Shown here in pieces: positions 53,455 through 63,738 of a stretch of DNA of 64,000 bases; positions within the stretch are counted from its first letter, which is position 1, and every line of letters starts with the position of its first letter. The position numbers and the translations under genes are program-made. Source of the stretch: Reyranella sp. (lineage in GTDB: Bacteria; Pseudomonadota; Alphaproteobacteria; Reyranellales; Reyranellaceae); the NCBI RefSeq assembly GCF_004297405.1, contig NZ_SCVC01000012.1, forward strand, positions 186,001-250,000, in the 5' to 3' direction. The notes under the pieces were generated by a model that ran no database searches, was not told the DNA's origin, and saw only the letters and a list, made by a program, of their open reading frames with translations.

Positions 53455-54057
53455 ATGCCTATGGCCCTGATTGCAGCGAAGCGCGTTCTGTTTGGTTTGC
53501 TTGGCGCGATGACGGCGACAACAGCGATGGCCCAGACGGCCGCTCAGACACCGACCAAGGTGCCGCGTAGTGTCGTTGAAACGTCGGCGACGCAGCCTGT
53601 TCCGGAATTCCGCGATCCCAAGACCGGCCAAGTCTGGACCCAGAACAACGTCGGCACGAGCCCGATTGGCAAGCCGACGCCGGCCGATCTTGCCTTCGAT
53701 CCCCTCGGCCAGGCGACACGCATCGACGGCGTCGTAATCCAGCGGCCGGCGGTTGCGCTGCTCGGCTGGTCGCCGCCCTCCGCTGGACCCAACGTACCGC
53801 TGGTCTCGCTCGACAATGCGAGCCTGAGCGCCATTGCGGGCAAGCGCTGGCAGGTCGCGCTCTACGTGAACAACAACGCCAACGGCATCATGCTCCCGAT
53901 GATCGACTGCCGGTTCACCAATGCGGGCAAGACCGTCCAAGAAACCCGCGTGCTCGTTCCTGCACTCGGAGCCGGCATCCGTGCAGGTGTCTTGATTTAC
54001 GGGCCCAAGACCGACCTGTTCGTCGATCGTGCCCACTGTCGGATCGTCTCGCCCTGA
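53455..54057 (+). CDS. Secreted protein of unknown function, paralogue A
   Basis: 200 residues. A signal peptide (LFGLLGAMTATTAMAQ) is followed by a mature chain with PEFRDPKTGQVWTQNNVG, DLAFDPLGQ, VIQRPAV, DCRFTNAGKTVQETRV and IYGPKTDLFVDRAHCRIVSP. The last blocks match the protein at 63187 closely, including two cysteines that could form a disulfide. No known family is recognised. It is upstream of the stress-response cluster, and GGGGAGAG precedes the ATG. Confidence 0.82.
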   Translation: MPMALIAAKRVLFGLLGAMTATTAMAQTAAQTPTKVPRSVVETSATQPVPEFRDPKTGQVWTQNNVGTSPIGKPTPADLAFDPLGQATRIDGVVIQRPAVALLGWSPPSAGPNVPLVSLDNASLSAIAGKRWQVALYVNNNANGIMLPMIDCRFTNAGKTVQETRVLVPALGAGIRAGVLIYGPKTDLFVDRAHCRIVSP

Positions 54058-55018: not shown

Positions 55019-55294
55019 TCAGGGGCCTGCTTTGGTGGGCGCGCCGTCTTCCTTGAGGGAAGGGGCATCGAGGCGTTGCTGCGCCTTCTTCACGTCGGCG
55101 AACAGGCTTGGCTCGCCTTTGTCCATGCCTTCCTCACTCGCCACCTGAAGGAGGCGGGCGTCGACCTCCCATTGCTTGAGGATGGCTGCCTTCTCGGTCG
55201 TGTCGAGATCACGATTATCAACGACGTCGGCGGGATGCCGAAATACGCTGCTGGGATTCGACAGCGCCTTCTTCTTGTCTTCGGCGGTGATCAT
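55019..55294 (-). CDS. Small acidic/charged protein, likely general stress response gene
   Basis: 91 residues, starting MITAEDKKKALSNPSSVFRH and including DVVDNRDLDTTEKAAILKQW and a region of mixed charge. It resembles the short soluble proteins often found in alphaproteobacterial stress regulons; no confident family. A perfect EcfG promoter site lies at 55322-55347 and GGAGGCAGC precedes the ATG at 55294. It follows nepR in direction but has its own promoter. Confidence 0.75.
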   Translation of the reverse strand: MITAEDKKKALSNPSSVFRHPADVVDNRDLDTTEKAAILKQWEVDARLLQVASEEGMDKGEPSLFADVKKAQQRLDAPSLKEDGAPTKAGP

Positions 55295-55352: not shown

Positions 55353-55589
55353 CTACTTCTTCTCGCGTGATGCGTCGGAAGAATCCTTCGGCTTCCCGTT
55401 CTGCTTGCCCTGGGCAGCATCGCTGTCGATCAGGTGGAGTAGATCGTCGGGCAGCGGCTCGCTGGCGATTTCATCGTACATCGCGTGAAGCTGTTTCTGC
55501 AGCCACATGTCGAAGGGGCGCTCACTGCCCCTGGGCGCAGGGCGGCCCGGAGGAGAACGCCCCCCGGCCGCTTTACTGTCATCGGCCAT
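55353..55589 (-). CDS. nepR: NepR anti-sigma factor
   Basis: 78 residues. The NepR core is RPFDMWLQKQLHAMYDEIAS followed by EPLPDDLLHLID, the two-helix region that binds EcfG and, when stress is sensed, the sigma-like domain of PhyR. The N- and C-terminal tails are polar, as expected for a disordered anti-sigma factor. The ATG at 55589 has GGGGAG upstream. It lies 117 bases after ecfG in the same direction, the reverse of the common nepR-ecfG order. Confidence 0.9.
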   Translation of the reverse strand: MADDSKAAGGRSPPGRPAPRGSERPFDMWLQKQLHAMYDEIASEPLPDDLLHLIDSDAAQGKQNGKPKDSSDASREKK

Positions 55590-55706: not shown

Positions 55707-56291
55707 CTAGCGCGTCGTCATCCGGGGCTCTTCCTCCCCGGATTGCGCGATGCCATCGCGGCCTTCAGTGGCCGGCTGGCGGGTCTCACCCTCGAGCAGC
55801 AGCCGCTCGAGTGTGTCGCGCGCGCGCGAGATACGACTCTTGACCGTACCGACCGAAACGCCCGTGTGATCGGCGATCGTTTCATAGGGAAGGCCTTCAA
55901 GTACGGCCAGCAACAGAGCTTCGCGCTGCGCTGCGGCGAGCTTGCCGAACGCGCTCATGAATTCGCGCATGATCAGACCACTGTCCTGATGTGGCGGATG
56001 AGAAAGCGACTCGGCAATCGCCGTGTCGACCGGCACCGTCGGCCGGCGCCGACGCAAACCGGAAATGAATTCGTTGCGTTGGATACGGAACAACCAGGCA
56101 GCGAGGTTGGTACCGGGCTGGAAGCTGTGACGGCCGGTCAGCGCCTTGACCACCGTATCGTGGACGAGGTCTTCGGCTGCATCGCGGTCTCGTGTCAGCG
56201 ACAAAGCATAGATCCGCAGGCGTGGCAGGATAGTTTTGAGTTGCTCGTGAAAGTCGAGAGCGTTCTGGTCCTGCTGGGTCTGCGCGGTCAT
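55707..56291 (-). CDS. ecfG: EcfG-type general stress response sigma factor
   Basis: 194 residues. Sigma region 2 is RIYALSLTRDRDAAEDLVHD and LAAWLFRIQRNEFISGLRRR; region 4 is ALLLAVLEGLPYETIADHTG then SVGTVKSRISRARDTLERLL. This is the ECF15 (EcfG) layout. It directs polymerase to GGAAC/CGTT promoters and is held by NepR. An AT-rich spacer of 115 bases lies upstream. A second, smaller sigma factor gene is next to it. Confidence 0.92.
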   Translation of the reverse strand: MTAQTQQDQNALDFHEQLKTILPRLRIYALSLTRDRDAAEDLVHDTVVKALTGRHSFQPGTNLAAWLFRIQRNEFISGLRRRRPTVPVDTAIAESLSHPPHQDSGLIMREFMSAFGKLAAAQREALLLAVLEGLPYETIADHTGVSVGTVKSRISRARDTLERLLLEGETRQPATEGRDGIAQSGEEEPRMTTR

Positions 56292-56406: not shown

Positions 56407-56871
56407 CTATTGAAGCTTTTCTGACAGATGCTTCCGGGCGCGCGATACTCGCGCCTTGAGGGTGCCGACTGAACACCCGCAGAGACTCGCTGCTTCTTCA
56501 TAGGAGAAACCACCGGCCCCCACGAGCACAAGTGCTTCGCGGGCTTGCGGGCTGAGCTTCCACAATTCGACTGAAAGCTCCTTCAGGGCGAGTGTCGCTT
56601 CCGGATTGTCGACGGCCAGAATCTGCGGCGTCGCCTCGTCGTCAATCGTCTGTGGCCGCCGGCGTTGCGTGCGCAGATCGGAGTAAAAGCGGTTGCGCAT
56701 GATGGTGAACAGCCAGCCTTTGAGATTAGTGCCAGGAGTGAACTGCTCATGCTTGTCGAGTGCAGCGAGGATGGTGTTCTGCACGAGGTCGTCGGCCGCT
56801 TCCCGGTCGCGGCACATGAACCGTGCGAAAGCGCGAAGGTCGGGCAGAAGGGCGACGATGTCGTCTTTCAT
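56407..56871 (-). CDS. Second EcfG-like ECF sigma factor
   Basis: 154 residues from the ATG at 56871. Region 2 has FARFMCRDREAADDLVQNTI and LKGWLFTIMRNRFYSDLRTQ, region 4 FSYEEAASLCGCSVGTLKAR then VSRARKHLSEKLQ. It resembles the EcfG family but lacks the N-terminal 20 residues and the C-terminal tail of the larger one. It may compete for NepR or act on a subset of promoters. It is divergent from the CsbD gene. Confidence 0.88.
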   Translation of the reverse strand: MKDDIVALLPDLRAFARFMCRDREAADDLVQNTILAALDKHEQFTPGTNLKGWLFTIMRNRFYSDLRTQRRRPQTIDDEATPQILAVDNPEATLALKELSVELWKLSPQAREALVLVGAGGFSYEEAASLCGCSVGTLKARVSRARKHLSEKLQ

Positions 56872-56922
56872 CACTGTGAATGTGGGGCGCTCAACGCCGA
56901 ACGGAAGAGAAAAACGAAGACG

Positions 56923-56948
56923 GCAACCGCATCCCGATACCGCACGTT
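56923..56948 (+). promoter_or_regulatory. Near-match EcfG-type promoter upstream of csbD
   Basis: GCAAC at 56923-56927 is followed by 17 bases and CGTT at 56945-56948. It differs from GGAAC by one base. The -10 element lies 44 bases before the csbD ATG. Two further sites at 62554 and 62780 share this GCAAC variant. Confidence 0.55.
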
Positions 56949-56992: not shown

Positions 56993-57190
56993 ATGAACTG
57001 GGACCGTATCGAAGGCAATTGGAAGCAGGTCACCGGCAAGGTCAAGGAACAGTGGGGCAAACTCACCGATGACGACATCACGGTGATTGACGGCAAGCAG
57101 GAGCAGCTTGTCGGTCGCATCCAGGAACGCTACGGCGTAGCCAAGGACGAGGCCGAAAAGCAGGTCAATAACTGGATCGGTCGCATGTGA
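56993..57190 (+). CDS. CsbD family stress protein (cytoplasmic)
   Basis: 65 residues: MNWDRIEGNWKQVTGKVKEQ then WGKLTDDDITVIDGKQEQLV and QERYGVAKDEAEKQVNNWIG. CsbD-like proteins are strongly induced by general stress in many bacteria; their molecular function is unknown. AAGGAG precedes the ATG at 56993. A second CsbD gene with a signal peptide lies at 62835. Confidence 0.93.
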   Translation: MNWDRIEGNWKQVTGKVKEQWGKLTDDDITVIDGKQEQLVGRIQERYGVAKDEAEKQVNNWIGRM

Positions 57191-57205: not shown

Positions 57206-57231
57206 GGAACCACTGTGTGACCTTTCGCGTT
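57206..57231 (+). promoter_or_regulatory. EcfG-type promoter upstream of phyR
   Basis: GGAAC at 57206-57210, 17 bases, and CGTT at 57228-57231 match the general stress sigma pattern exactly. Transcription would start near 57238, giving a leader of about 175 bases before phyR that includes a long hairpin. This fits positive feedback on phyR. Confidence 0.7.
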
Positions 57232-57292: not shown

Positions 57293-57412
57293 GTCATGTC
57301 CGCTTTCGCAACTTGTCATTAGCGGGTTGTCTGCGAGCGGTGAGGGCGTAGTGTAGGCTTCCGATTCCGGGTGCTTCTCAGGATTGGACTATCGAGCGAG
57401 AGGGAGAGCGCT

Positions 57413-58216
57413 GTGGCGGAAGGGCAGGTAGCGACCAAGAAGATGTCCGAGGCGATCACGAGGACATTGCCATTCCTGCGCCGCTATGCGCGCGCAGTCA
57501 CCGGCTCCCAACAGCAGGGCGATGAATGGGTTCGCCTGTGCGCGGAAGTGGCGGTGCAACAGCCAGATCTCATTGCCGAGGCTGAGGACACGAAAGTGGG
57601 CGTATTCGCCCTGTTCCACCGGCTGCGCCAGCCATTCGGCGATATCGAGGAGGCGGCCAGCGGCGGTGAAAGCGTCAGCGGCCGACTGAAGGAATCGCTG
57701 ACCGACATGGCGCCGTTGCAGCGCCAAGTCCTGCTGCTCACCGTCCTTGAAGGATTCACTGTGGGCGATGCCGCGCACATCTTGGGCGTCGACATCGACA
57801 CCGCCGAGCGCAGCCTCGAGGAGGCGCGTCGCGAATTGCAGCGGGTCGCCTCGGTACGCGTGCTGGTGATCGAGGATGAGGCTGTGATCGCGCTCGATGT
57901 TGCGGACATCGTGCGCAACGCCGGCCATGAGGTGGTCGGTATTGCAGCGACCGAGAAGGCGGCGATCGACCTTGCCACGAAGCATTCGCCGCATCTCGTG
58001 CTGGCCGACATTCAGCTTCGCGGCGCCGACAGCGGCATTTCCGCTGTCAATCAGATCATGAAGTCAATGTCGGTGCCGGTGATCTTCGTCACCGGGTTCC
58101 CCGAACGCCTGCTGACCGGCAAACAGGTCGAGCCGGCATTCGTCATCTCCAAGCCTTTCGATCCCGATCTTCTTCGTGCGGCTATCGCGCAGGCGCTCGA
58201 TACCGTATCGATCTGA
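57413..58216 (+). CDS. phyR: Response regulator PhyR, general stress anti-anti-sigma factor
   Basis: 267 residues. The N-terminal half is a sigma-factor-like domain (ITRTLPFLRRYARAVTGSQQ; LLTVLEGFTVGDAAHILGVD) and the C-terminal half a receiver (VRVLVIEDEAVIALDVADIV, phosphoacceptor Asp in LVLADIQLRG, FVTGFPERLL, ISKPFDPD). When phosphorylated, PhyR binds NepR and frees EcfG. The GTG at 57413 is favoured because AGGGAGAG lies 6 bases upstream; an ATG 10 codons later is possible. The kinase follows 15 bases later. Confidence 0.93.
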   Translation: MAEGQVATKKMSEAITRTLPFLRRYARAVTGSQQQGDEWVRLCAEVAVQQPDLIAEAEDTKVGVFALFHRLRQPFGDIEEAASGGESVSGRLKESLTDMAPLQRQVLLLTVLEGFTVGDAAHILGVDIDTAERSLEEARRELQRVASVRVLVIEDEAVIALDVADIVRNAGHEVVGIAATEKAAIDLATKHSPHLVLADIQLRGADSGISAVNQIMKSMSVPVIFVTGFPERLLTGKQVEPAFVISKPFDPDLLRAAIAQALDTVSI

Positions 58217-58231
58217 TTGCGAGGCCGGACA

Positions 58232-59962
58232 ATGCCAGCGCGGTGGTCGCTTCGATCCACGCTGGTGGCGCTTGCGGCGCTGACTCTCCTGCCGATCCTC
58301 GGGCTTGCCGCCTGGCAAGCCAACAAGGCGCAAACGGACAGGGCGGCGCTGCAGGATGCCGGGCTGGTCGCCGCTGGCGATCTTGTCGTTGCTCGCTACG
58401 GCGAGCTCATTGAAGCATCGCGCCGCATGCTCTCGGCAGCATGCACGGCCGATCCGGTGCGGCAGAGCGCAAGTACCCAGCCGGAACCGGCCGATGTCAG
58501 CCGCTGCGAAGCCTACTTCGTGCGGGTACTCGGAGCGGCGCCTGCGCAATACTCCGTCATTCTGGTGACGGACGATCAGGGAGTGGCGCGTTGCGCCAGC
58601 CAACCAACTGCGGTGGGCATTAGTCTCGCCGATCGTGATGTCTTCCAGAAGGTCCGTTCCGCCGGAGGATTCTCCATCGGCGAACAGATCGCCAGCCGCA
58701 TCGGGCCGCACACCGTCATTCCCGTAGCTCTTCCGATCACGAGTGATGGGGCCTTTCGTGGCATGTGTGCTGTCGGGATCACCCTCAAAGCGCTCGCCGA
58801 CGTGGCAGCGATCGCACCGCCAATGGGGTCGATTGGTACGGCCATGATTGCCCGTGACGGGGCGACGATCGGCGGTGATCCGGCGGCGATGCGCCGGCTG
58901 CCGATGCCGTCACGCTTGGCGGCCTCGATCACCGGCGATCAGTCGAGTTTTTCAGACTATGGGCGAGATGGCTTGCTCTATGAGTTTCGTCTCCGACCGA
59001 TCACAGGCAGCGCGCTCTATGCGGTGACGTCTGCGCCGATTGCTGAAGGTATCGCTGCTTTCGCCGGTAGCTGGGCGGTGCTCGCGTTGACGGCCCTGGC
59101 GCTCGCTTTGGTGTTGCTGACCGTCTGGCTGGGAGCCGATCGCTGGTGCGTGCAGCCGTTACGCTACATCCAGACCTATGCCGAAAGAGTGGCGCGCGGC
59201 GAAGAGATCAAGTTCGCACCACCCCATTCCTGGTCGCCGGAAATGGCCTCGATCGGGGCCGGCGTCTCGGCCATGGCAGAAGCGATCGCCAGCCGCGAAG
59301 CCGAACTGCGGGCGGGCCTCGAACAGCGCGACCACATGTTGCGCGAGATCCATCATCGCGTGAAGAACAACCTTCAGATGATTTCGAGCCTGCTGAATCT
59401 CCAGGCAGGCGAAATCAGATCGCCGCGCATACGGCGTTTCTTTGGCGATGCACAAAACCGTGTGCTGACGCTCTCGATCCTGCACCGGCATCTCTACGAG
59501 CGTTCGAGCTGGTCGCTGGTCGATTTCCAGCAGTTCATCAGCGACCTCGTGAGGCAGCTTTCCGTGGGCCGCCGGAGTGCCGAACGACAGGCGCCGCGCT
59601 ACCATATCCGCGCGCCGATCATGGCGGTGGGGCCCGACACGGCAATTCCGGTCGGCCTGATCGTCACTGAGGCTGTGAGCATCGCCCTCAACCATGACTT
59701 CGCAGGTGTTGCGTCACCGGAAGTGCGGATCGAGGCGATCGAAAGCGACGGACAGGTGGAACTGGTGATCGAGGACAACGGCACAGGACAAGACACCGGC
59801 ACTCTGGGACCTGATGGTCGCGGTGGCTTCGGTCTCTCCCTGATCCGCGGTCTGGCCATGCAGCTCGGCGGTGAAGCTGTGATCTCCACCAAGGAGGGAG
59901 GAGGCAGCCGCATAGCCGTTACCTTCCCGGCGCCCGGCGCCGACGAGGCGGAGGATGCCTAG
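58232..59962 (+). CDS. Membrane sensor histidine kinase (HisKA_2 type) with an atypical N box
   Basis: 576 residues. Two membrane helices (about 10-28 and 275-300) flank a double-Cache-like sensor domain with a conserved disulfide-type cysteine pair. A HAMP-like segment is followed by the phosphoacceptor box LREIHHRVKNNLQMISSLLN. The ATP-binding domain has a good G1 box (IEDNGTGQD) and G2 (GFGLSLI), but the N box reads GLIVTEAVSIALNHDF where relatives have GLIVNELVTNALKHAF. The asparagine that holds magnesium is Ile near residue 484. This class phosphorylates PhyR. Confidence 0.88.
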   Translation: MPARWSLRSTLVALAALTLLPILGLAAWQANKAQTDRAALQDAGLVAAGDLVVARYGELIEASRRMLSAACTADPVRQSASTQPEPADVSRCEAYFVRVLGAAPAQYSVILVTDDQGVARCASQPTAVGISLADRDVFQKVRSAGGFSIGEQIASRIGPHTVIPVALPITSDGAFRGMCAVGITLKALADVAAIAPPMGSIGTAMIARDGATIGGDPAAMRRLPMPSRLAASITGDQSSFSDYGRDGLLYEFRLRPITGSALYAVTSAPIAEGIAAFAGSWAVLALTALALALVLLTVWLGADRWCVQPLRYIQTYAERVARGEEIKFAPPHSWSPEMASIGAGVSAMAEAIASREAELRAGLEQRDHMLREIHHRVKNNLQMISSLLNLQAGEIRSPRIRRFFGDAQNRVLTLSILHRHLYERSSWSLVDFQQFISDLVRQLSVGRRSAERQAPRYHIRAPIMAVGPDTAIPVGLIVTEAVSIALNHDFAGVASPEVRIEAIESDGQVELVIEDNGTGQDTGTLGPDGRGGFGLSLIRGLAMQLGGEAVISTKEGGGSRIAVTFPAPGADEAEDA

Positions 59963-62537
59963 CCTCCTCAAGTCCGCACGCTCGACCGGCATCATCGTCG
60001 GCCTGACGATCGCCGTGCTGATTGCGAGCGGCATTATGCTCGCCATCACTCATTCCAAGTCGGCGGCTCGGCAACAACGGCTTGTCGTCAGCAATTATGA
60101 GACCATGGCGCTGATGCGCGACATGGTGATCGCGCTGCAGGATGCCGAGATCGGCCAGCGCGGCTATCTGCTGTCCGGTGATGCGACCCGGCTGGAACCC
60201 TATGAGCGCGCGCGCGTACGGATCGAATCGGGATTGCGGCAGCTAGAGGCGTCGGTCGCCGGCAATCTCGACGCCACGCGACAGTATCGCGAGTTCGCCG
60301 CTCTCGCCGGCGACAAGCTCGAGCAGCTCAATGCCACGGTCGGCGCCTATCAGCTCTATGGTCGCGACGCCGCGCTGGCCCTCGACCGAACGGGCGCCGG
60401 ACGGGCAATGATGGGGCAGGTCCGCCTGCTGGGGGATTCCTTCGTCGAAGGACAGCGCCTTCTGCTGGCCAGTCAGCTCGCGGCGCTGCGCTCGGAACAG
60501 GAGCAGGCCGACATTGCCGGGCTCCTTGTCATGGCCGGCGCCTTCATGTGCCTGGTCGCCGGCATCTATATCGTTGTCAGCGGCGCTGGCCGGCTGGAGC
60601 GAACCCAGCAGGATCTGACGGCCAGATCACGACTGCTTCAGACGACGCTCGAGAGCCTTCAGGACCCGATCTTCGTGCTCGATGCCGCGGGGACGGTCGT
60701 CGCCTGGAATCGGGCGTTTACTCAACTTGCGCAGTGGGATCCGCTCAGGCAAGCCCCTCCGACGCGCGACCAGTTGCTGTCAGACCGCTCGCCCGCAACC
60801 CGCGCCCTGTTGCAGCCACTTGGTCTTGGGACGGCACCAGCCGATGCGGCCTCTGTCGATCGCTCGTCAGTCGTGCGGGTGTCGCACGACGGCCGGGACT
60901 TCGAAGTCTATCGCGGCGAGATGGAGGGCGGCGGCGACGTCATTCGCTGCGTTGACATCACGGAAAAGCTGCGCGACGAGACGGCGCTGCGCCAAGGTCA
61001 GAAAATGGAAGCGACGGGCCAACTCACGGGAGGCATGGCGCATGACTTCAACAACATCCTGCAGGTCATTAGAGCCAATCTCGATCTTCTGAGGGGCGAA
61101 CTCAGTGGTCACGAGGCGGCTTTGGCGCGCCTTCAGACCGCGACGGCGGCGGCTGAGCGCGGGGCGAGACTCACGTTGCAGCTGTTGGCGTTCGCCCGTC
61201 GCCAGCCACTGGCGCCGCAACCCACGAACGTGGCGCAGTTGATCGGTGACCTCGCCGATTTGTTGCGTCACTCCTTGGGCGAGCGCATCGCCATCGAATT
61301 CAAGGTTGCCGAAGATCCCTGGAACGCCAGGATCGATCCGAGCCAACTCGAGAACGCTATCCTGAACCTCGCCATCAATGCGCGCGATGCCATGCCGGAC
61401 GGCGGCACCGTGCGGGTCGAGGTCTCGAACGCCACTTTGGATCGTCGCTACGCCGCGCTGCATCCCGATGTGACGCCAGGTCCTTATGTGCTGATGGACG
61501 TTAGCGATACTGGCATCGGCATGCCGCCGGAGGTCGTGGCACAGGCGTTCGACCCCTTCTTCACGACCAAGCGCGATGGCAAGGGGACTGGGCTGGGACT
61601 CAGCATGGTCTACGGATTCGTGCGCCAGTCGAACGGCCACATCCGGATTGACAGCGCGATCGGGCAGGGCACCAGCGTGAAGCTCTATCTGCCGCGGACA
61701 CAGGATCCGGTCGTCGAGGAAGATCAAACTGTGGTTACTGTTCTGACGGGCAGCGAGCGCATCCTGGTTGTCGAGGACAGCGACGATGTTCGGCGCGCTG
61801 TCGTTGATATGCTCACCGGCTGGGGGTATCGCGTCGTGGCGGCGGAGAACCCCGATGTTGCGGTAGCACTGTTCGAGAAGGACCCGAACTTCGACCTGTT
61901 GTTCACCGACATTGTAATGCCCGGCACGATGACGGCGATCGAACTCGCCGAACTGGTTCAGAAAAAACGACCGGGAATTGCCGTTCTGTTGACCTCGGGT
62001 TTCGCGCGCGATCTCGTGCCGGACTTCAGCCGAACCGGCTATCCGCTGATTACCAAACCCTACAGTAGCGAAGCGCTCGCCACTCGGGTGCGTGCGGCTC
62101 TGGCGGCCCGCCGGCCACGCGTTGCACCCTTGCCAGAACCAACGCCAACGCCGGCTCCGGCATCGTCTCTTGCCGACCACCCCAGGCGAATACTCCTGGT
62201 GGAGGACGAGATCGTGCTGCGCATGTCGACGACCGATATGCTGGCGCAAATGGGCTGCGTCGTGTCGGGCGTCGGGACGGGCGAACAGGCGCTGGAAATG
62301 CTGGCAACAGATGGCAAGTTCGACCTTCTCCTGACCGACCTCGGACTGCCGGGCATGAGTGGCGAGGAACTGGCAAGCCAGGTGCGCCAGCAATTTCCGA
62401 TGCTGCCTGTGGTGATCGCCAGCGGCTACGGCCCCTCGGCGCCGCTGCTAGAAGGCACACAGTTCATTTCCAAACCCTATTCGGCCATCGACCTTCAGCA
62501 GGCTCTGGATCACGCGATTAGAAAGGCAGCAGCCTGA
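59955..62537 (+). CDS. Hybrid sensor histidine kinase with two receiver domains
   Basis: 860 residues. Order: membrane helix (15-33), CHASE3-like helical sensor (about 40-180) and second helix (190-212), PAS-like segment (220-330), HisKA with GGMAHDFNNILQVIRANLDL (about 358-380), HATPase with a normal N box (LNLAINARDAMPDG) and GTGLGLSMVYGF. Then receiver one (ILVVEDSDDVRRAVVDML, Asp in LLFTDIVMPG) and receiver two (ILLVEDEIVLRMSTTDML, Asp in LLLTDLGLPG). No Hpt domain. The start overlaps the preceding kinase by 8 bases. Confidence 0.9.
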   Translation: MPSLLKSARSTGIIVGLTIAVLIASGIMLAITHSKSAARQQRLVVSNYETMALMRDMVIALQDAEIGQRGYLLSGDATRLEPYERARVRIESGLRQLEASVAGNLDATRQYREFAALAGDKLEQLNATVGAYQLYGRDAALALDRTGAGRAMMGQVRLLGDSFVEGQRLLLASQLAALRSEQEQADIAGLLVMAGAFMCLVAGIYIVVSGAGRLERTQQDLTARSRLLQTTLESLQDPIFVLDAAGTVVAWNRAFTQLAQWDPLRQAPPTRDQLLSDRSPATRALLQPLGLGTAPADAASVDRSSVVRVSHDGRDFEVYRGEMEGGGDVIRCVDITEKLRDETALRQGQKMEATGQLTGGMAHDFNNILQVIRANLDLLRGELSGHEAALARLQTATAAAERGARLTLQLLAFARRQPLAPQPTNVAQLIGDLADLLRHSLGERIAIEFKVAEDPWNARIDPSQLENAILNLAINARDAMPDGGTVRVEVSNATLDRRYAALHPDVTPGPYVLMDVSDTGIGMPPEVVAQAFDPFFTTKRDGKGTGLGLSMVYGFVRQSNGHIRIDSAIGQGTSVKLYLPRTQDPVVEEDQTVVTVLTGSERILVVEDSDDVRRAVVDMLTGWGYRVVAAENPDVAVALFEKDPNFDLLFTDIVMPGTMTAIELAELVQKKRPGIAVLLTSGFARDLVPDFSRTGYPLITKPYSSEALATRVRAALAARRPRVAPLPEPTPTPAPASSLADHPRRILLVEDEIVLRMSTTDMLAQMGCVVSGVGTGEQALEMLATDGKFDLLLTDLGLPGMSGEELASQVRQQFPMLPVVIASGYGPSAPLLEGTQFISKPYSAIDLQQALDHAIRKAAA

Positions 62538-62553
62538 TTTCGCGTGGCGCGTG

Positions 62554-62578
62554 CAACCTGGGCCGTTATGTGGCGTTC
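62554..62578 (+). promoter_or_regulatory. Near-match EcfG-type promoter upstream of a 52-residue protein
   Basis: GCAAC at 62554-62558, 16 bases, and CGTT at 62575-62578. It is one base from the EcfG pattern and ends 38 bases before the ATG at 62617. It lies just after the hybrid kinase stop. Confidence 0.5.
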
Positions 62579-62616: not shown

Positions 62617-62775
62617 ATGGAGTCCAGGCAAGTTCCTGACCTTACGCAGGCGTCGAACATGTCGTCCGACGAAGCATCCCGCAGTCCGCTGGCCGGTGAA
62701 CTGTTGGACCTCTATGTCGCGATGACCATCGTCATCCCGTTGGCCTTCCTCCTGAAATCGCTGTGGCCTTCCTGA
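62617..62775 (+). CDS. Small single-pass membrane protein in the stress cluster
   Basis: 52 residues. A polar N terminus (MESRQVPDLTQASNMSSDEA) leads to one helix LYVAMTIVIPLAFLLKSLW near the C terminus. No family is recognised. CTGGAGGGG precedes the ATG at 62617. A GCAAC-type stress promoter is upstream, which suggests that it belongs to the EcfG regulon. Confidence 0.7.
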   Translation: MESRQVPDLTQASNMSSDEASRSPLAGELLDLYVAMTIVIPLAFLLKSLWPS

Positions 62776-62779
62776 GGCG

Positions 62780-62804
62780 GCAACCTCGGCTGTTGCGCTT
62801 CGTT
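62780..62804 (+). promoter_or_regulatory. Near-match EcfG-type promoter upstream of exported CsbD
   Basis: GGCAAC at 62779-62784 (core GCAAC from 62780), 16 bases, and CGTT at 62801-62804. It lies 30 bases before the ATG at 62835, immediately after the preceding stop. The same GGCAAC variant occurs before the other csbD gene. Confidence 0.6.
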
Positions 62805-62834: not shown

Positions 62835-63155
62835 ATGCGGTCACTCGCTATTCTCGCCGCTTGCGCAGGCCTTGCCGTCGGCGCGCTCCCTGTCGCCGTG
62901 CATGCGCAGGCATCGGGGCAAACGACCACCCAGAACGACGCCAAGACAATCTGGGAGAAGTTCAAGGGCAGCTGGAGTCAGACCAAGGGCGCGGTGAAGG
63001 AGCAATGGGGCAAGCTCACCGACGATGATCTGCTTGCCATCGAGGGGCGCCGCGATCAGCTCGTCGGCAAAATCCAGACTCGCTACGGCATCACCAAGGA
63101 AGAGGCCGAAGCCCAGGTGAGCACGTGGGAGCAGCGTCGCTATCGCGACATGTAG
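62835..63155 (+). CDS. CsbD-like protein with signal peptide (exported)
   Basis: 106 residues. A clear signal peptide (RSLAILAACAGLAVGALPVA, cut near VHA-QA) precedes a CsbD domain: WEKFKGSWSQTKGAVKEQWG, then LTDDDLLAIEGRRDQLVGKI and YGITKEEAEAQVSTW. Twelve residues (VKEQWGKLTDDD) are identical to the cytoplasmic CsbD at 56993. This would place a CsbD protein in the periplasm. A perfect AAGGAGGT lies 6 bases before the ATG. Confidence 0.9.
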   Translation: MRSLAILAACAGLAVGALPVAVHAQASGQTTTQNDAKTIWEKFKGSWSQTKGAVKEQWGKLTDDDLLAIEGRRDQLVGKIQTRYGITKEEAEAQVSTWEQRRYRDM

Positions 63156-63186: not shown

Positions 63187-63738
63187 ATGAAGCGTCACAT
63201 CCATCTTGCGACGCTTACTGCGCTGGGAATGGTCATGGCAACGGCCGCGGCTGCCCAGGTCCCGCAGTTCCGTGATGAAAAGACAGGCAAGGTTTGGACG
63301 CCGGAAAACGTCAGCAAGGATAACCAGACCCTTCAGCAGCAGGCGGCCGTGCCCGCATCCCCCGCGGACAGGGCATTCGATCCCAACAGCCAGACCGTGA
63401 CAATGCCGCCCGTGATCCAACGGCCGCGTGGCAACTTGATGGGAACCGTTCCCATCACTGCCGGCCCGACGGTGCCGATCGCTACGCTTGACGGCGCGTG
63501 GCTGCAGGCGGTGCCCCAACAGAATTGGCTGTCGGTGATCTATGTCACGAACAACAGCGCCGGCGTCATCGATGCCGTCGTGAGTTGCATGTTCACCAAT
63601 GGCGATCGACCGGTGCAGGAAGTGCGCGTCGTGGCACAACCTGCGGGACCGGGCGAACGCTGGGGCATGCCGGTCTATGGTCCACGCGTCGAAATCTTCG
63701 TCGATCGTGTGACTTGTCGGTTGTTGTCGCCGCCGTAG
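63187..63738 (+). CDS. Secreted protein of unknown function, paralogue B
   Basis: 183 residues with a signal peptide (HLATLTALGMVMATAAAAQ). The mature chain has PQFRDEKTGKVWTPENVS, DRAFDPNSQ, VIQRPRG, SCMFTNGDRPVQEVRV and VYGPRVEIFVDRVTCRLLSP. These blocks match paralogue A at 53455, 10 kb upstream, including both cysteines. It lies 31 bases after the exported CsbD and is likely in the same transcript. Function unknown. Confidence 0.85.
   Translation: MKRHIHLATLTALGMVMATAAAAQVPQFRDEKTGKVWTPENVSKDNQTLQQQAAVPASPADRAFDPNSQTVTMPPVIQRPRGNLMGTVPITAGPTVPIATLDGAWLQAVPQQNWLSVIYVTNNSAGVIDAVVSCMFTNGDRPVQEVRVVAQPAGPGERWGMPVYGPRVEIFVDRVTCRLLSPP

Follow-up and report, generated by a model that had tools for sequence, protein, structure and literature searches.

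Proteins of the CsbD family are small bacterial stress proteins that are normally intracellular. In a 64,000-nucleotide stretch of Reyranella sp. DNA (hereafter the window; contig NZ_SCVC01000012.1, positions 186,001 to 250,000), one open reading frame (ORF) appears to place a CsbD domain behind a cleavable signal peptide, within an island that encodes regulators of the general stress response. The locus therefore raises the question of whether a CsbD protein is indeed exported and, if so, what it could do on the far side of the inner membrane. CsbD proteins are widespread and their biochemical role is not settled in the portion of the literature that was searched, so that an exported version beside the stress master switch would offer a handle on the function of this unexplained family.

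The ORF at 62835-63155 (+) encodes MRSLAILAACAGLAVGALPVAVHAQASGQTTTQNDAKTIWEKFKGSWSQTKGAVKEQWGKLTDDDLLAIEGRRDQLVGKIQTRYGITKEEAEAQVSTWEQRRYRDM. It matched the Pfam model PF05532 (CsbD) at residues 41-92 with 75.8 bits (E 2.4e-21), exceeding the curated cut-off of 40 bits. With NF007748 (PRK10428.1), the NCBIfam model fitting YjbJ, it scored 92.3 bits, below the cut-off of 113, and the cytoplasmic copy encoded in the same window was also under this cut-off, with 108. These are the only two CsbD matches in the source genome (6.46 Mb, 50 contigs), and both lie inside the window. The ATG at 62835 is directly preceded by the Shine-Dalgarno sequence AAGGAGGT (match 8/8), and the upstream in-frame alternative starts had Shine-Dalgarno scores of 0-4. 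The earlier note had described a CsbD ORF with a signal peptide at this position, and had named a start codon internal to the ORF, after the hydrophobic segment, as the observation that would speak against it. The coordinates, the domain and the ORF were all confirmed. An internal start is unsupported and was ruled out, because a GTG at V22 is the sole in-frame candidate after the hydrophobic run and ahead of the domain, and it lacks a Shine-Dalgarno sequence.

The N-terminus, MRSLAILAACAGLAVGALPVAVHA↓QA, displays the n-, h- and c-regions of a Sec-type signal peptide. Signal sequences were scored by a hydrophobicity rule of our own (a 12-residue mean Kyte-Doolittle value above about 1.9 near the start, accompanied by a ribosome site; for the surveys, no more than 70 residues could precede the CsbD domain). 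By this rule the protein, with a 12-residue maximum of 2.6, carries a signal sequence, and its predicted signal peptidase I site, VHA↓Q, has small residues at -3 and -1. In this it departs from the typical small, soluble, cytoplasmic member, cytoplasmic location being a customary trait of CsbD members that does not define the Pfam family. In an alignment of 32 exported copies from the genus, M1, R2, A24 and Q25 were invariant and the remainder of the N-terminus was variable; 28 more invariant columns follow from W40 onward. Both the hydrophobicity rule and the invariant A24-Q25 pair of this alignment support the cleavable signal peptide predicted in the earlier note.

The exported form was found in 31 of the 37 genus genomes searched (the source genome and 36 others), in 32 copies, with two in G002; at least one CsbD was present in 35/37. 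The genomes without the exported form were G006, G007, G009, G013, G018 and G023; G006, G007 and G013 are less than 90% complete, and in G013 the contig stops short of the expected place. G569, a genus genome sampled later, also has the exported form. The start of the copy in G026 (locus L068) was assigned by hand (MRKFAL). Among similar pairs, dN/dS was about 0.20 for the domain, 0.42 for the signal sequence and 0.52 for the linker, so exported csbD is under purifying selection, and the mature part is cysteine-free in all exported copies. Matches to the exported alignment included Reyranella massiliensis, R. soli, R. aquatilis, Enhydrobacter aerosaccus and many MAGs; R. massiliensis 521 was the nearest (93%) among the matches listed, from which records very near the source genome may be absent. 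The exported CsbD is a conserved feature of the genus and not a single-strain freak, and the observation is better founded than the earlier note had it.

Table 1. Features of the stress island (positions in the window)
Feature	Position	Strand	Description
Secreted-looking protein	53455-54057		Paralogue of the protein at 63187-63738
Small charged protein	55019-55294	-	91 aa; no Pfam match
NepR anti-sigma factor	55353-55589	-	PF18557, 27.6 bits vs cut-off 25.7; query one codon longer at start
EcfG-type sigma factor	55707-56291	-	ECF sigma-70 domains
Second ECF sigma factor (ecf2)	56407-56874	-	Pfam/NCBIfam domain matches
EcfG-type motif of cytoplasmic csbD	56923-56948	+	GCAAC-N17-CGTT
Cytoplasmic CsbD	56993-57190	+	65 aa; Pfam CsbD match
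EcfG-type motif	57206-57231	+	GGAAC-N17-CGTT; listed with PhyR ORF
PhyR anti-anti-sigma response regulator	57371-58216	+	NF006623, 297.8 vs cut-off 240
PhyK-like HisKA_2 histidine kinase	58217-59962	+	Top NCBIfam match HisKinPhyk, under its cut-off
860-aa ORF	59955-62537	+	Putative hybrid histidine kinase, receiver-like C-terminal part
Second EcfG-type motif	62553-62577	+	GCAAC-N16-CGTT; ahead of small membrane peptide gene
Small membrane peptide	62617-62775	+	52 aa; C-terminal segment GELLDLYVAMTIVIPLAFLLKSLW; no Pfam match
EcfG-type motif of exported csbD	62780-62804	+	GCAAC-N16-CGTT; 55 nt 5′ of start
Exported CsbD protein	62835-63155	+	106 aa; signal sequence 1-24, Thr/Gln-rich linker 25-39, CsbD domain 41-92
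Predicted signal peptide	62835-62906	+	Cleavage VHA↓Q after residue 24; hydrophobic run, A24/Q25 invariant
Secreted-looking protein	63187-63738	+	31 bases 3′ of exported csbD; family without Pfam match

The genes of the island are listed in Table 1. The first ECF sigma factor was named EcfG because its gene adjoins nepR, and the true start of PhyR probably lies inside its ORF. The 860-aa ORF is read as a hybrid histidine kinase from its translation, from the match of its end to PhyR (31.6% over 117 residues) and from synteny. The recurrent order in the genus is nepR-ecfG (-), ecf2 (-), [cytoplasmic csbD], phyR, phyK-like gene, 860-aa ORF, [membrane peptide], exported csbD, secreted-looking protein. 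Exported csbD lies near nepR/ecfG/phyR/phyK homologues in 31/32 genus loci, although short contigs remove the far part of the neighbourhood in several of them. In 30 of the 32, exported csbD is immediately preceded by the 860-aa ORF; at L068 the regulator set is nearby in a different order, and at L036 (the second G002 copy, near a contig end) the set was not seen. A peptide with a C-terminal segment similar to that of the small membrane peptide precedes exported csbD in 26/32 loci, and a homologue of the secreted-looking protein follows it in 29/32; in the window the gene of the latter is probably co-transcribed with exported csbD.

Other genes of the island also drew our attention. The small membrane peptide, with an EcfG-type motif ahead of its gene, looks like an undescribed stress peptide. 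The two secreted-looking proteins, which lie at both ends of the island, are paralogous (42.8% identical over 168 residues). The gene of the small charged protein has a GGAAC-N17-CGTT motif just 5′ (55347-55322) and is a candidate further EcfG target.

The promoter motifs were searched with the consensus of the Sphingopyxis EcfG regulon, which is described as GGAAC-N16-CGTT, with GGAAC and GCAAC as the two most frequent -35 boxes (PMC7083833). Such a motif lay within 100 nt of the start in 31/32 exported loci vs 15/349 control genes from the same loci, L068 being the sole exported locus without one; since the loci share descent, the 31 are not independent events. With spacers of 15-17, the window holds five matches of the GGAAC form and five of the GCAAC form, against shuffled-window averages of 1.2 and 1.45, and five matches were attained by 0/100 and 1/100 shuffles, respectively. 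A chance promoter match is ruled out by the conservation of the motif, non-independent loci notwithstanding, and by the 349 control genes. In Sphingopyxis, csbD is reported as a direct EcfG target, with a relative expression of 0.00 in the double sigma mutant (PMC7083833). Against a general link, a Sphingomonas melonis EcfG paper mentions neither CsbD nor YjbJ (PMC6599016). Exported csbD has the promoter motif expected of an EcfG regulon gene, and its regulation by EcfG is predicted.

The earlier note had called the exported and cytoplasmic domains of this genome nearly the same, which is too strong: they are 59% identical over 59 residues. The 12-mer VKEQWGKLTDDD is indeed identical in both copies, but it is uninformative on this pair, because it also occurs in E. 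coli YjbJ (PDB 1RYK). Among the 31 genomes with the exported form, a cytoplasmic copy of the type at 56993 was intact in 14 and was not detected in 15; in the other two it is broken, by a stop codon in G019 and by loss of the middle part in G032. These decayed genes were observed beside intact exported genes (L080 near 700-1008 in G032; L059 near 7.9-8.1 kb, minus strand, in G019). In 8 of the 15 genomes (G001, G008, G015, G025, G027, G029, G031 and G035) the contig covers the stretch between ecf2 and phyR, and no csbD lies in it. Eleven of the 15, as well as G019, encode elsewhere a shorter cytoplasmic CsbD beginning MSST; none of 20 MSST-type loci examined in the genus has a signal sequence, and an EcfG-type motif lies within 100 nt of the assigned start in 15/20. 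Some cytoplasmic CsbD is thus present in 26/31 exported-form genomes, and the exported protein stands alone in five (G010, G021, G026, G032 and G036). The pairing is frequent and recurrent, and it is not obligatory. It had been proposed that CsbD is needed on both sides of the inner membrane under stress. The EcfG-type motifs of both copies, the frequency of pairing and the adjacent pairs of other families (see below) are in keeping with this proposal; the limited number of intact neighbouring copies, the genomes with an exported CsbD only, the 12-mer shared with E. coli and the grouping of exported forms across families are not. The proposal is partly supported, and a need on both sides can only be inferred.

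Outside the genus, exported CsbDs were rarely met. An even phylum sample contained CsbD in 66/200 genomes, two of them from the source genus, and 107 of its loci, all from other genera (27 given and 80 fetched; weaker and unlisted matches excluded), yielded 133 CsbD ORFs. No signal sequence was identified in any of these: 131 lacked one outright, and in the 2 doubtful cases inspection favoured a start at the domain itself, where the ribosome site is better. In a class sample CsbD was present in 36/142 genomes, and no exported form was found in 27 further class-sample loci read by eye nor in ten more fetched stretches. A wider class search with the exported alignment matched 92/385 genomes; among the listed loci and 14 fetched stretches examined, which do not comprise every match, exported CsbDs outside the genus were encoded in G552, G422, G509 and G583, and a double-domain form in G468. 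Adjacent exported-cytoplasmic genes were present in 10/10 genomes of the G422 genus; in the same family, G605 has the order cytoplasmic-exported and G596 (L172) an exported double-domain protein. The order cytoplasmic-exported was also seen in G552, where GGAAC-N16-CGTT precedes the first gene; G617 (L170), of the G552 family, encodes an exported CsbD with a GGAAC-N16-CGTT of its own. Tandem two-CsbD-domain exported proteins are encoded at L172:2725-3276 and L346:4831-5385. Four genomes of one genus (G200, G310, G318 and G333) have 7 to 22 CsbD matches each, several of them clustered.

The exported CsbD of L165 lies near a nepR/ecfG/phyR/phyK set, that of L169 beside nepR and ecfG, and that of L164, on a short contig, adjoins a phyK homologue; an ECF sigma gene is 1.4 kb (L170) and 2.7 kb (L413) away. 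At L172 no regulator-set homologue was found within 11 kb, and GGAAC-N16-CGTT lies 96 nt 5′ of the start. In the 10 genomes of the G422 genus, no nepR/ecfG/phyR homologue was detected in the fetched flanks, which totalled 5.5 to 20 kb, nor was an EcfG-type motif present within 300 nt ahead of the gene pair, so stress control of exported CsbDs is not general.

A tree was built from 113 CsbD domains, with the signal sequences excluded (64 columns, many forks lacking resolution). Fourteen exported rows (the source genus, L169, L170, the two domains of L172, and L321) formed one group spanning three families (SH-aLRT 99). A second exported group (SH-aLRT 95) comprised three rows, from the G422 genus and from G605, and the two L346 domains stood apart. 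AU tests rejected none of three constrained trees. A single clade of all exported domains gave p 0.406. Joining the first two exported groups gave p 0.859 and a likelihood above that of the free tree, which means that the free search was incomplete. A clade of Reyranella exported and cytoplasmic copies gave p 0.274 and was 26.7 log units worse.

Were the exported gene a recent within-genus duplicate of the neighbouring cytoplasmic csbD, its product would be expected to have the same partners. The shared locus, the 59% identity and the AU test, by which the forced Reyranella clade is not rejected, are consistent with such an origin; yet the free tree places the exported copies with the exported CsbDs of other families, the forced tree is worse, and the shared 12-mer extends to E. 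coli. We regard a recent duplication as improbable, and the domain sequences fit an old exported subfamily better. The state of the N-terminus was weighed in the same way. An uncleaved anchor would leave a membrane-tethered CsbD with its domain facing the periplasm, the hydrophobic run is long enough for a membrane span, and the conserved small membrane peptide encoded just upstream makes a membrane complex thinkable. This arrangement is nevertheless unlikely, given an A24-Q25 pair that is invariant in 32 aligned copies among variable neighbours, and given that mature proteins starting with Q after such sites are described as common in the periplasm of an alphaproteobacterium, where nine carry pyroglutamate and cleavage after SHA and THA is documented (PMC3608174). 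Processing as a lipoprotein at C10, where LAAC resembles a lipobox, was dropped as scarcely credible: 18/32 copies have a lipobox-like match within the first 15 residues, but 14/32 have none, only 9 residues precede the cysteine, and the hydrophobic stretch comes after it.

A cleaved, periplasmic CsbD could also belong to the signalling circuit itself, for instance as a ligand or stress sensor for the PhyK-like kinase, and not be an effector. The position of the 860-aa ORF directly upstream in 30/32 loci, with a phyK-like gene before it where the contig suffices, would suit such a role. That exported csbD apparently has its own promoter for EcfG output, and that other families carry an exported CsbD without homologues of the regulator set in the fetched flanks, makes a signalling part quite unlikely.

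The conserved core of the domain bears on what an effector might do. Eleven positions that are near-constant in 94 cytoplasmic domains (G45, W47, G52, W58, L61, T62, G71, G78, Q81, Y84 and G85) are invariant in 14/14 exported rows, and D64, present in 90/94 cytoplasmic domains, is N in 2/14. The exported group differs by K42, a frequent E68 and S87, the source-genome copy having A68 and T87, and its mean net charge is 0.07 vs -1.47 for the cytoplasmic domains. A structure model was poor (pLDDT 56.6), and a fold search gave 1RYK as the sole match below E 0.001, adding nothing. Because the exported branch keeps the conserved residues, the CsbD activity would probably operate without any partner confined to the cytoplasm, such as the ribosome, RNA polymerase or DNA. 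To judge from these alignments, retention of the core in the exported protein favours a generic physical activity over an essential cytoplasmic partner. DNA, ribosomes, RNA polymerase and ATP pools are all missing from the periplasm, so conservation of these residues there would narrow their possible role.

The best explanation, to which we give about an even chance, is an exported CsbD branch that acts as an EcfG-controlled envelope protectant of the general stress response; the protectant role itself is a guess. Under general stress, by analogy with other alphaproteobacteria, phosphorylated PhyR would titrate NepR and thereby free the EcfG-type sigma factor. The latter would then transcribe exported csbD from the gene's own promoter, a step for which the motif is observed and the pathway presumed. 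The product would leave the cytoplasm by Sec, and cleavage behind A24 would release into the periplasm a presumably helical domain of 82 residues, free of cysteine and with nearly no net charge. During drying, starvation or osmotic stress this domain may shield periplasmic proteins or the surface of the membrane, with the cytoplasmic CsbDs presumably relying on the same physical activity inside the cell. More tentatively, and at rather less than even chance, the CsbD mechanism might be physical and compartment-independent, so that some Alphaproteobacteria would deploy a standing pair of cytoplasmic and exported forms, often adjacent or in one stress island, and the exported branch would be an old, separate, undescribed subfamily of envelope stress protectants. 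Such a branch would add an envelope output to the alphaproteobacterial general stress response, in the regulators' own island.

Published phenotypes can be set beside this reading. Loss of streptococcal csbD is reported to render cells sensitive to bile salts, with damage to the surface and a build-up of bile inside the cell (PMC10294668), and a fungal CsbD deletion is described as sensitive to heat and UV-B (PMC12733939); by analogy, both would fit a broad protective role. The streptococcal protein was, however, proposed to be a stress sensor or signal that raises transporter gene transcription, and this proposal misfits a compartment-independent protectant and speaks against it (PMC10294668).

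The CsbD family is already known, and what appears to be new is the exported, apparently stress-controlled branch. Among the matches listed from open-access titles and abstracts, none dealt with a CsbD whose signal peptide is cleaved, nor did the matches listed from the open-access literature describe an exported, stress-controlled branch. CsbD proteins have been reported outside the cytoplasm. MAV_4077 of M. avium is tabulated among secreted proteins (PMC5103417). Saro_1332 of Novosphingobium aromaticivorans resembles the exported CsbD in its presence in the periplasmic fraction, and differs in that only the methionine is reported as removed, with no signal peptide detected; hence a CsbD can reach envelope fractions without a signal peptide (PMC3608174). 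Asr1134 and Asr4653 of Anabaena are likewise CsbD proteins from a cell-surface extract, but have a mature length of 59 residues and a domain that begins at residue 4 or 5, with no signal sequence shown in the reported data (PMC4103569). As these published extracytoplasmic CsbDs show no signal peptide, envelope detection alone proves nothing, and it is the mature N-terminus that decides. The csbD gene of Sphingopyxis granuli (SGRAN_3063), compared by its description, is alike in belonging to an EcfG regulon and unlike in that the main text of the report makes no mention of a signal peptide (PMC7083833). Finally, with the CsbD/YjbJ family proper, represented by E. coli YjbJ (PDB 1RYK) and P. aeruginosa PA4738 (PDB 1YWW), the exported CsbD shares the domain of about 53 residues and nearly all conserved residues; most sampled family members begin at, or just ahead of, the domain, whereas in the exported CsbD a signal sequence and a Thr/Gln-rich linker come first.
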